This document shows, in pieces, positions 32,020 through 34,921 of a stretch of 64,000 nucleotides of DNA (positions are counted from its first letter, which is position 1; every line of letters starts with the position of its first letter). Location of the stretch: NCBI RefSeq assembly GCF_900109885.1, contig NZ_FOBS01000001.1, positions 124,001 to 188,000 of the forward strand, in the 5' to 3' direction. A program made the position numbers and the translations under genes. This DNA is from Syntrophus gentianae (GTDB taxonomy: Bacteria > Desulfobacterota > Syntrophia > Syntrophales > Syntrophaceae). The notes below the pieces were generated by a model that was not told the origin of the DNA, searched no databases, and saw only the letters and a list, made by a program, of their open reading frames with translations.

Positions 32020-32211
32020 CTATGCGCCTCTTCTTCTTTGAACCTTTGCAAAACGACGCCGCGCTTCAATGGCTTTTCTCTTACGTTTGACCGATGGTTT
32101 TTCATAAGCCCTTCGGACTTTCAACTCCTTGAACAGCCCACTTTTGGAAAGCTTGTTTTTCAAAATCTTCAAAGCCTTTTCCACGTCGTTGTCAAACACT
32201 TTGACTTCCAA
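32020..32211 (-). CDS. rpsU: 30S ribosomal protein S21
   Basis: The 63-residue basic protein matches S21: EVKVFDNDVEKALKILKNK at the N terminus, LKVRRAYEKPSVKRKRK in the middle and a basic tail (ARRRFAKVQRRRGA). S21 helps mRNA binding on the 30S subunit. The start is TTG at 32211, since AAGGAG is 7 bp upstream; the nearby ATG is out of frame. It is preceded by a 543-bp noncoding region, so it likely has its own promoter and leader. Confidence 0.93.
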   Translation of the reverse strand: MEVKVFDNDVEKALKILKNKLSKSGLFKELKVRRAYEKPSVKRKRKAIEARRRFAKVQRRRGA

Positions 32212-32754
32212 ATCATATCTCCTTTTTCTAATTTATGAATTTTCTTAAATATTACCGGGAAAACAGAAGACGCTTATCTTATTGTCCTTCAGCTTCGGGT
32301 CGATGGGCAGAACCTGAAATCACATAAGACTTTTAAGGATGAAAGGCGTATTCACGACATCTATGGAAAAAGCAGATCACCTATTTACATTGGCAAAATA
32401 GCTTACCAAATCAAACGCCCCGTTAACTTACCCTTCGTCTCCGTTATATAAAAAAAGGGCAGTACGGTTCATGATTTCTCACGCCGTAAACCACCCTTTG
32501 CTTTTACCAATATGGTTTTACCACACTCCTTACCGGGCAATCCTGCCTTTATCGAATATTAAAATCCTTCATGATCTTATTTAATTTTCTTCGTTTAACC
32601 GCCTGTTGACCTTAATCTGAAGTCGATCTGAATCTAAACGGACCCAACAGGATCGAGTGAATCGGAAAGCAGACAAGCTTTATAAGCAATATTACTTAAA
32701 ATTGCAACCTAAAAAATTTACGGTATCTGAAAAAAAAACATCGGTACTGGAAAA
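32212..32754. other. AT-rich intergenic region between gcvH-like and rpsU genes
   Basis: I see no gene in this 543-bp stretch. It is clearly richer in A and T than its surroundings. No perfect terminator or tRNA-like fold was found by eye. The only local repeat noted is GGTAAAA twice within 25 bases on the minus strand near 32500. It should contain the promoter of the leftward rpsU gene, but no convincing -35/-10 pair stands out. Confidence 0.5.
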
Positions 32755-33147
32755 TCATTCCTCTTCCTGAGCGATGTAATCCTGATAATCCCTGATCTCC
32801 AAAAGATCGTCCAGCTCATCCGAATCTTTCATCTCAATCACCACAATCCACCCTGCATCGTAGGGATCACTGTTCAAGATCGTCACGTCATCGATGATAT
32901 CTTCATTGACGTTGACGATTTCTCCCGACAGAGGCGACACCAGTTCAAACACGTCATTCGATGACTCAATCGTCCCGAAAGGTTCGTCTCTCTCAACAAA
33001 TACGTCCACTTTGGGTAAATCTACCTCATCCACGTCCCCGAGCTTTTCCAGGGCATACTCCGTAATGCCCAGCGTAGCCATATTACCGTCAACAGCTACC
33101 CAAATGTGTTCACGACTATAAAGAAGATCATCCGGAAATAATTTCAT
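32755..33147 (-). CDS. GcvH-like protein lacking the lipoyl-lysine
   Basis: The 130-residue protein aligns throughout with glycine cleavage H protein: YSREHIWVAVDGNMATLGIT, LGDVDEVDLPKVDVFVERDE, SPLSGEIVNVNEDI and NSDPYDAGWIVVIEM. In GcvH the lipoylated lysine sits in the hairpin ESVKA. Here that segment reads GTIESSNDVFELVSP, so Asn replaces Lys, and no other Lys is near. It cannot carry lipoate at the normal site, so it is unlikely to shuttle methylamine groups as a normal H protein. The C terminus is very acidic. No gcvT, gcvP or lipoate ligase gene is nearby; it lies 24 bp after an M24 peptidase gene on the same strand. Role unknown. Confidence 0.85.
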   Translation of the reverse strand: MKLFPDDLLYSREHIWVAVDGNMATLGITEYALEKLGDVDEVDLPKVDVFVERDEPFGTIESSNDVFELVSPLSGEIVNVNEDIIDDVTILNSDPYDAGWIVVIEMKDSDELDDLLEIRDYQDYIAQEEE

Positions 33148-33171: not shown

Positions 33172-34260
33172 TTATAGGATAATGAAATCCTTTGGCATTT
33201 TTGTCAGTATGTCCGCTCCGTTCTCGTGCACCAGGACGGTATCCTCAATCCGAATTCCCCACTGGCCGGGGAGATAAACCCCTGGTTCGATGGTCACAAC
33301 CATGCCTTCGACGAGAATGGTGTCCGAATTCCTTGATATCCTCGGCGCCTCATGAACCTCCAATCCAACGCCGTGACCCGTCCCATGAGTAAAATAGCCA
33401 TCCAGGCCATATTTTGCTAAACAGCTTCTTGCAATCTGATCGATCCGGCTGCAGGGCACACCGGGTCGAATCGCTTCCAAGGCCTGATCATGAGATTCCT
33501 TCACTCTGGCATATATTTCCCGTTTCCTGTCATCCGCAGATCCCAGGCAGAAGGTGCAGGTTTCATCAGAACAATATCCTTCACTGACGACGCCATAGTC
33601 TACAACAATCAGATCGCCATATTCCAGAATTTTCCGACCGGGTTTTGCATGGGGCAACGCGGCATTTGCTCCTGAGGCCACAATTGTTTCAAAGGCCATT
33701 CTTTCCGCTCCGGCCCTCTTCGCCCCGAAATCAATCTCCAGGGCAAGGTCCCTCTCCGAAATACCCGGACGGATCGTTCGAGCTACGGCTTCCAGCACCC
33801 CTCCGGCCAGTTCCGCGGCACGGCGAATGCAGGAAACTTCATCATCATCCTTAACCGCTCGAAGATTATTCAACTCTTCCGACAGGGGTTTCAATCTTTC
33901 TTCTCGAAGTCGATCCGCCAACTTCTGATAGAACTCATAACTGACCGCAGAGGCTTCAAAACCGATCCTGTCCCCATCCTTCGGTTCAAGAACAGCTTCA
34001 ATACCGTCCACCTTGTCCTGATAGTGATAAAGATCCGTGTCTTGCGCTTCTTCCTGAGCCTGTGTCACATATCGCCCATCCACAAGCAATATGGCGGTTG
34101 GCGGTCGAATAACCAAGACCCCGTCGCTTCCGGAAAATCCGGTCAAATAGCGGATATTATTCAGATCAAAAAGGATAAGGGCTTGAATTTCACCTTGAAA
34201 GAAGCTTGAAGAGCACAGTCGAGACAATCGGGTTTGATAAGCCGTCCGTTCAAAAGGCAT
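33172..34260 (-). CDS. M24-family Xaa-Pro aminopeptidase
   Basis: The 362-residue protein is a creatinase-like metallopeptidase. An N-terminal creatinase domain contains NNIRYLTGFSGSDGVL. The catalytic domain holds all five metal ligands of the family: Asp in IVVDYGVV and in GYCSDETCTF, His in THGTGHGVGLEVHE, Glu in VVTIEPGVYLPGQWG and in GIRIEDTVLV. It removes N-terminal residues preceding proline and acts in the cytoplasm. Its start overlaps the end of the TPR gene by 11 bp, so the two are probably translationally coupled. In many deltaproteobacteria a pepP/pepQ gene lies near efp; no efp is present here. Confidence 0.93.
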   Translation of the reverse strand: MPFERTAYQTRLSRLCSSSFFQGEIQALILFDLNNIRYLTGFSGSDGVLVIRPPTAILLVDGRYVTQAQEEAQDTDLYHYQDKVDGIEAVLEPKDGDRIGFEASAVSYEFYQKLADRLREERLKPLSEELNNLRAVKDDDEVSCIRRAAELAGGVLEAVARTIRPGISERDLALEIDFGAKRAGAERMAFETIVASGANAALPHAKPGRKILEYGDLIVVDYGVVSEGYCSDETCTFCLGSADDRKREIYARVKESHDQALEAIRPGVPCSRIDQIARSCLAKYGLDGYFTHGTGHGVGLEVHEAPRISRNSDTILVEGMVVTIEPGVYLPGQWGIRIEDTVLVHENGADILTKMPKDFIIL

Positions 34261-34921
34261 AACGTCTTCTTCTCTGGAGAGAAATCAACCAGCGGTTCAG
34301 CCTTTGAATCACTTTCTCCCGCTGCCGAATTTGAATGGCCTTTTTTTCTAAAGCGCTCTTTGAGGCCAGAACATCCCTCAGCTTTTCCTGAATGACTGAA
34401 TCATCAGGGGCTTTTATCAACATCTGTTTCAGAAGAGCTTCCGCCGCATCCAGGTGCCCCTGCCGGATATACAGGTCAACCATGGTCAAGGTTTGCAGGC
34501 TGGTCGCTATGGGAGGTTCAGGAGCCTTAACGGCCCGGAATTCCTGGATCACCCCCCCTTGTTCTTCCTCAAGAATCCGTAATTTACCGCATACATCCCG
34601 GGAAAGATCAGAATCGGGGTTCAGCACCATGAACCGGCGATAAAATTTAACCGCTTCCTGGTTTAACCCACCCTTGAAACAGATATCCCCCATGCAGGCA
34701 AAGACGCGTGAAAGCCCCAATACCACCATCTCTACATCCTCAACCAAAGAGGTGGCTTCTTCAAGCTTCCCCAACCTCATACAGGCATGGCATTGAATAA
34801 TGAGTGCGTCAATGTCTCCGGGATTTTGGTCAAGCCATTGTTTCGCCGCCCGCAAGGCACTTTCATAAGCGCCTTGATCCAGCAGGGTTTGGGCTTCGGA
34901 AAGAAAAGATGCTCTATCCAT
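34250..34921 (-). CDS. TPR-repeat protein
   Basis: This 223-residue protein is mainly helical. Regular tetratricopeptide-like pairs occur at residues 5-140, for example LLDQGAYESALRAAKQWLDQNPGD and a following GKLEEATSLVEDV, then LNQEAVKFYRRFMVLNPDS. A later repeat reads GHLDAAEALLKQMLIKAPDD. The C terminus is a basic helix ending in LQRRRRYAF. There is no signal peptide. Such proteins act as scaffolds; its partner is unknown, though position just after the type IV pilus genes makes a pilus-related role possible. It overlaps the peptidase gene by 11 bp. Confidence 0.72.
   Translation of the reverse strand: MDRASFLSEAQTLLDQGAYESALRAAKQWLDQNPGDIDALIIQCHACMRLGKLEEATSLVEDVEMVVLGLSRVFACMGDICFKGGLNQEAVKFYRRFMVLNPDSDLSRDVCGKLRILEEEQGGVIQEFRAVKAPEPPIATSLQTLTMVDLYIRQGHLDAAEALLKQMLIKAPDDSVIQEKLRDVLASKSALEKKAIQIRQREKVIQRLNRWLISLQRRRRYAF

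Follow-up and report, generated by a model that had tools for sequence, protein, structure and literature searches.

A glycine cleavage H-protein paralogue lacking the lipoyl-lysine in Syntrophus gentianae, and its mostly lysine-bearing orthologues

Here, we report GcvHx, a paralogue of the glycine cleavage H-protein (GcvH) in Syntrophus gentianae that carries asparagine in place of the lipoyl-lysine. The gene lies in a 64,000-nucleotide stretch of contig NZ_FOBS01000001.1 (the window). H-protein is a classic cofactor carrier, normally dependent on an attached lipoic-acid arm. In GcvHx the attachment site is relaxed and the remainder of the protein is constrained; we consider it likely that GcvHx is a lipoyl carrier with an additional, lipoate-independent and probably protein-binding role that has outlived the cofactor.

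The window gene, its locus and its genome

The features of the locus were as follows.

32755..33147, minus strand: GcvHx, H-protein paralogue without lipoyl-lysine, 130 amino acids (full-length H-fold)
32956..32958, minus strand: codon 64, AAT (Asn), replacing the lipoyl-Lys codon of Ex2Kx10G (read directly; column aligned to 134 orthologues)
33172..34260, minus strand: pepQ-type M24 peptidase, 24 nt upstream of GcvHx, conserved neighbour (Peptidase_M24, 5.9e-73)
34250..34921, minus strand: TPR-repeat protein, encoded ahead of pepQ at most loci (profile match, gene order)
32212..32754, minus strand: gap, occupied in most Lys-bearing relatives by lipM, often followed by hisC (locus comparison)
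32020..32211, minus strand: small open reading frame matching the rpsU-like gene found in relatives on the other side of the lipM that is lost here (locus comparison)

Residues 8 to 126 match Pfam GCV_H (PF01597) at 2e-33, and in the AlphaFold2 (AF2) model (pLDDT 89.8) both hairpin strands, 56-62 and 66-70, are preserved; over 129 residues it aligns with the structure of pea H-protein 1htp (Z 24.5, 0.8 Å). An earlier note on this DNA, made from the letters alone, had called the gene a full-length GcvH homologue with its hairpin, and by both sequence and fold it belongs to the glycine cleavage H protein family. The lipoylation motif of H-proteins is Ex(2)Kx(10)G (PMC4518038); in GcvHx it reads E61-x2-N64-x10-G75, with Glu and Gly kept and Lys replaced. 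As that note had read, the codon is AAT (32958-32956) and no Lys lies nearby: the protein has only K2, K35, K46 and K107, none inside the hairpin, and it has no Cys. Linkage to gcvT and gcvP was seen at no locus read. GcvHx is a member of the H-protein fold family without the defining functional feature of GcvH. For annotation it is relevant that the NCBI gcvH equivalog model (TIGR00527) accepts it, at 117.2 bits, slightly above the cut-off of 115.85, although its normal site cannot be lipoylated.

GcvHx is the final gene of a leftward run behind the M24 peptidase, again as described before, and its neighbours are pilOPQ, TPR, pepQ, LOG and holA. No remnant of lipM was found in the gap, and the other lipM-less loci gave weak tblastn matches to lipM at most. 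Promoter and terminator scans gave chance-level output.

The genome (3.7 Mb, 71 contigs; window on contig C1) encodes two other full-length GcvH proteins, both with Lys, which answers the earlier suggestion that a normal GcvH be sought. One of them is normal and lies between gcvT and gcvP in a complete glycine-cleavage cassette on contig C13, gcvT-gcvH-gcvP-lipB-lipA, in which the 246-amino-acid, LplA/LipB-family frame after gcvP was taken as lipB. Across the whole genome, gcvP and lipoate-enzyme genes were found on C13 and C28 only, bearing out the earlier statement that none is near GcvHx. The C13 cassette may be a re-acquisition, since the two sister Syntrophus genomes (G001 and G003) are without it. 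Contig C28 carries a self-contained lipoyl island (L206 4568-11048) with a LipM-like protein, a second LipA, a divergent GcvH with Lys, dihydrolipoamide-dehydrogenase-like and OsmC-like proteins, two DGC-domain proteins, an SBF-family transporter and an ArsR-like regulator.

The lysine column and the gene neighbourhood across genomes

Orthologues of GcvHx (E <= 1e-35; canonical GcvH scores clearly below them) were found in 134 of the 155 genomes of the order, and those in a representative set group as a single clade (support 99/95). Lys occupies the column in 123 orthologues and another residue in 11: Asn in the window genome (G000) and G003, Ser in G001, Gly in G016 and G044, Asp in G032, Arg in G013, G029, G023 and G119, and Ala in G043. 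On a tree built from PepQ plus GcvHx with the Lys columns left out, seven changes at this column are needed. Lys is the ancestral state of GcvHx and was lost about seven times, mostly alongside lipM and glycine cleavage and often with all lipoate synthesis.

The earlier note had asked whether Asn is fixed in orthologues. It is not: the genus has Asn or Ser at this position, and other families have Gly, Asp, Arg or Ala. Such variation suggests that constraint has been relaxed at this one site, and it excludes the idea that Asn is a newly acquired active residue held fixed. The same note had named Lys-bearing orthologues together with a sequencing error as grounds for doubt; the former are plentiful, but an error at codon 64 is excluded because the sister Syntrophus genomes carry Ser and Asn there. 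Some orthologues have one additional hairpin residue (L072, L100, L099, L078), with Lys or Arg shifted by one. Two genomes in which GcvHx is Lys-less also have two adjoining, more distant GcvH-like matches within long open frames (G016:C9:13018-14101 and G032:C79:2490-3584).

Downstream of GcvHx, 111 of 120 assessable Lys-bearing loci encode a protein of about 280 amino acids with an LplA-B_cat domain (PF21948), called lipM here from its size and the absence of an accessory domain and regarded as a candidate octanoyltransferase or ligase. This gene is absent at 9 of the 11 Lys-less loci, Syntrophus included, versus 9 of the 120 Lys-bearing ones. When loss of the two traits, Lys and lipM, was modelled on the tree, dependent loss was favoured (LR 18.1, p 1.2e-4), with a suggested order of events that rests on two tips; an independent-pairs test on the tree had few supported pairs. 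The coupling is not strict, as two Lys-less genomes (G043 and G119) keep lipM at the locus and nine Lys-bearing loci are without it. In G051, lipM (L107 6088-7032) has a low-complexity insert rich in Gly, Arg and Ala within the catalytic domain, and split matches point to a like insert in G153.

Upstream, pepQ directly precedes GcvHx in the same direction at all 127 loci with data, every Lys-less locus included (median gap, 28 nt), and is itself usually preceded by the TPR gene. Outside the order, in other families of the phylum, related GcvH genes also lie near pepQ, in pepQ-efp-accB-accC-GcvH-lipM clusters (e.g., L229 1383-6397). By adjacency only, PepQ is the first candidate partner; that GcvHx acts specifically with this M24 peptidase as a subunit or regulator is nonetheless rather unlikely. 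In those other families efp or efp-accB-accC stands between pepQ and the GcvH gene, a housekeeping operon fits the arrangement equally well, PepQ evolves faster than GcvHx (see below) and no pepQ-GcvHx fusion was seen.

The outer proteins are relatives and candidate orthologues; the gene order at L229 links GcvH there to acetyl-CoA carboxylase genes. Their Lys position can hold Gln (L237), Glu (L234, L240) or Arg (L244, L245). Tentatively, and with somewhat less than even confidence, we suggest that the H-fold in this phylum has an ancient, lipoate-independent housekeeping function, encoded with pepQ and elsewhere with efp and acetyl-CoA carboxylase genes, for which lipoylation would be optional and repeatedly losable and the protein essential or nearly so. 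At L240 (4180-6524), the GcvH that has Glu in place of Lys is encoded with lgt on one side and a gene for a fabD-like acyltransferase on the other; four further genomes of that family have a similar-scoring GcvH match, and the one read (G243) also has Glu.

Lipoate metabolism and selection

The locus lipM is the only LplA/LipB/LipM-family match in most Lys-bearing genomes. Among the Lys-less genomes, G001, G003, G016, G023, G029 and G044 gave no match to this family or to LipA, G013 and G032 have one off-locus family match plus LipA, and the window genome has the C13 and C28 lipoyl systems. Of the two that keep lipM at the locus, G119 also keeps LipA, and no LipA was seen in G043 (88% complete). 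GcvHx is also kept in eight Lys-bearing genomes without the LplA/LipB/LipM family and LipA. Several genomes are incomplete, which makes gene absences weaker outside G003; that genome is a single contig of 3,179,300 bases, 100% complete, in which no GcvP, canonical GcvH, LipA, LplA, LipB or LipM was found and GcvHx is retained.

Selection on the protein was strong. Pairwise omega (NG86) among the three Syntrophus GcvHx genes was 0.036-0.056 at dS 0.9-1.3; these pairs gave 0.12-0.165 for pepQ. Between G016 and G044, omega was 0.06 for GcvHx and 0.18 for pepQ. The lowest value, 0.036, came from G001 and G003, so that purifying selection is seen between two genomes that both lack LplA, LipB, LipM and LipA. 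All 11 Lys-less proteins agree at thirty-two positions, which include Met1 and the motif residues E61 and G75.

These values exclude a pseudogene. They also make it very improbable that GcvHx is a decaying relic that lost its sole function with lipoate and awaits deletion. A relic would suit a Lys that varies freely among lineages, as a functionless site does, and the lipoate-free genomes that still retain Lys; omega of 0.036-0.06 at dS near 1, below that of pepQ, disfavours it, as do the absence of stops from all 134 orthologous open frames and the retention of GcvHx in several independent lipoate-free lineages.

GcvP was missing in 9 of the 10 Lys-less genomes examined and in 6 of the 37 Lys-bearing ones (Fisher, 3e-5, relatedness ignored). 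An inactive decoy or regulator of glycine cleavage, competing with canonical GcvH, would fit the coexistence of the C13 cassette and GcvHx in the window genome; where GcvP is missing there is nothing to regulate, which counts against the decoy as a general role and leaves it with hardly any probability. A different covalent cofactor, attached to residue 64 or to another part of the hairpin, is just as improbable. Every Lys-less protein retains the hairpin and E61, but the hairpin offers no other Lys and no single chemistry suits the six residues found at position 64.

Proposed role and relation to known systems

Under the reading that we prefer, a carrier with a second role, GcvHx in genomes with lipoate metabolism would be a lipoyl or octanoyl carrier whose Lys64 is modified by the adjacent LipM/LplA-type enzyme, as the adjacency of lipM and the prevalence of Lys among the orthologues suggest. 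The lipoate-independent role would be carried by the H-fold body, with GcvHx probably acting as an adaptor or as a partner that binds another protein. Once glycine cleavage and lipM are gone from a lineage, in many cases together with the whole of lipoate synthesis, Lys drifts to one of the other residues, and strong selection continues to act on the body of GcvHx and on its position behind pepQ. The window protein is, on this reading, a cofactor-free form of this kind.

We infer the second role from selection and distribution alone: GcvHx most likely does something besides carriage because the site was lost repeatedly, partly in lipoate-incapable genomes, and because constraint exceeds that on pepQ. 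The earlier note had proposed that an H-fold kept without its cofactor serves a new, non-catalytic role, for instance as binding partner, regulator or scaffold. Purifying selection and retention without lipoylation machinery strengthen the first part; the novelty is doubtful, as the role is probably old and common to the family rather than newly evolved in Syntrophus, since most orthologues keep Lys beside a lipM-type gene that Syntrophus lacks.

A clade in which an H-protein remains under strong selection after repeated loss of site and enzymes sets lipoylation apart from a hidden function of the fold, and a lineage without lipoate background makes such a function directly testable. GcvHx may also bear on other H-proteins with unexplained roles, such as mouse GCSH, which is essential beyond glycine cleavage and for which a lipoylation role was proposed (PMC7868403). 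No published precedent for an H-protein acting independently of lipoate, and nothing pertinent on glycine cleavage in Syntrophus, was found in the searchable literature, which leaves out most subscription journals, and the parts seen of a lipoate-assembly survey (PMC10332631) do not mention Lys-less forms.

Compared with known systems, GcvHx shares fold, full-length match, E61 and G75 with GcvH (PF01597, TIGR00527; 1htp, 3ab9) and differs in lacking the lipoyl-Lys and gcvT/gcvP neighbours and in being kept in genomes without GcvP. Most orthologues resemble the Bacillus subtilis-type lipoyl-relay GcvH with LipM (PMC10332631): they carry Lys, and the LipM/LplA-type gene beside them usually encodes the sole enzyme of this kind in the genome. 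The relay in these orthologues is putative, and the window locus, in contrast to that system, has neither Lys nor attachment enzyme.

LbpA of sulfur-oxidising sHdr systems (PMC6067878) is likewise a GcvH paralogue outside glycine cleavage; it has its own attachment enzyme, a strictly conserved Lys and, except in some archaeal LbpA, two Cys, whereas GcvHx has Asn64, no Cys and another gene context, without sHdr genes nearby. GcvH-L of SirTM operons (PMC4518038; 5a35) resembles GcvH and is paired with a ligase specific to its operon; its function needs lipoylated Lys56, and its fold match to GcvHx is weaker (Z 16.6). TIGR03077 (not_gcvH) and NF045810 (GcvH_rel_desulf) are, like GcvHx, GcvH relatives distinct from canonical GcvH; GcvHx scores far below the cut-offs of both (72.1 versus 144.05 bits and 42.1 versus 150 bits, respectively).
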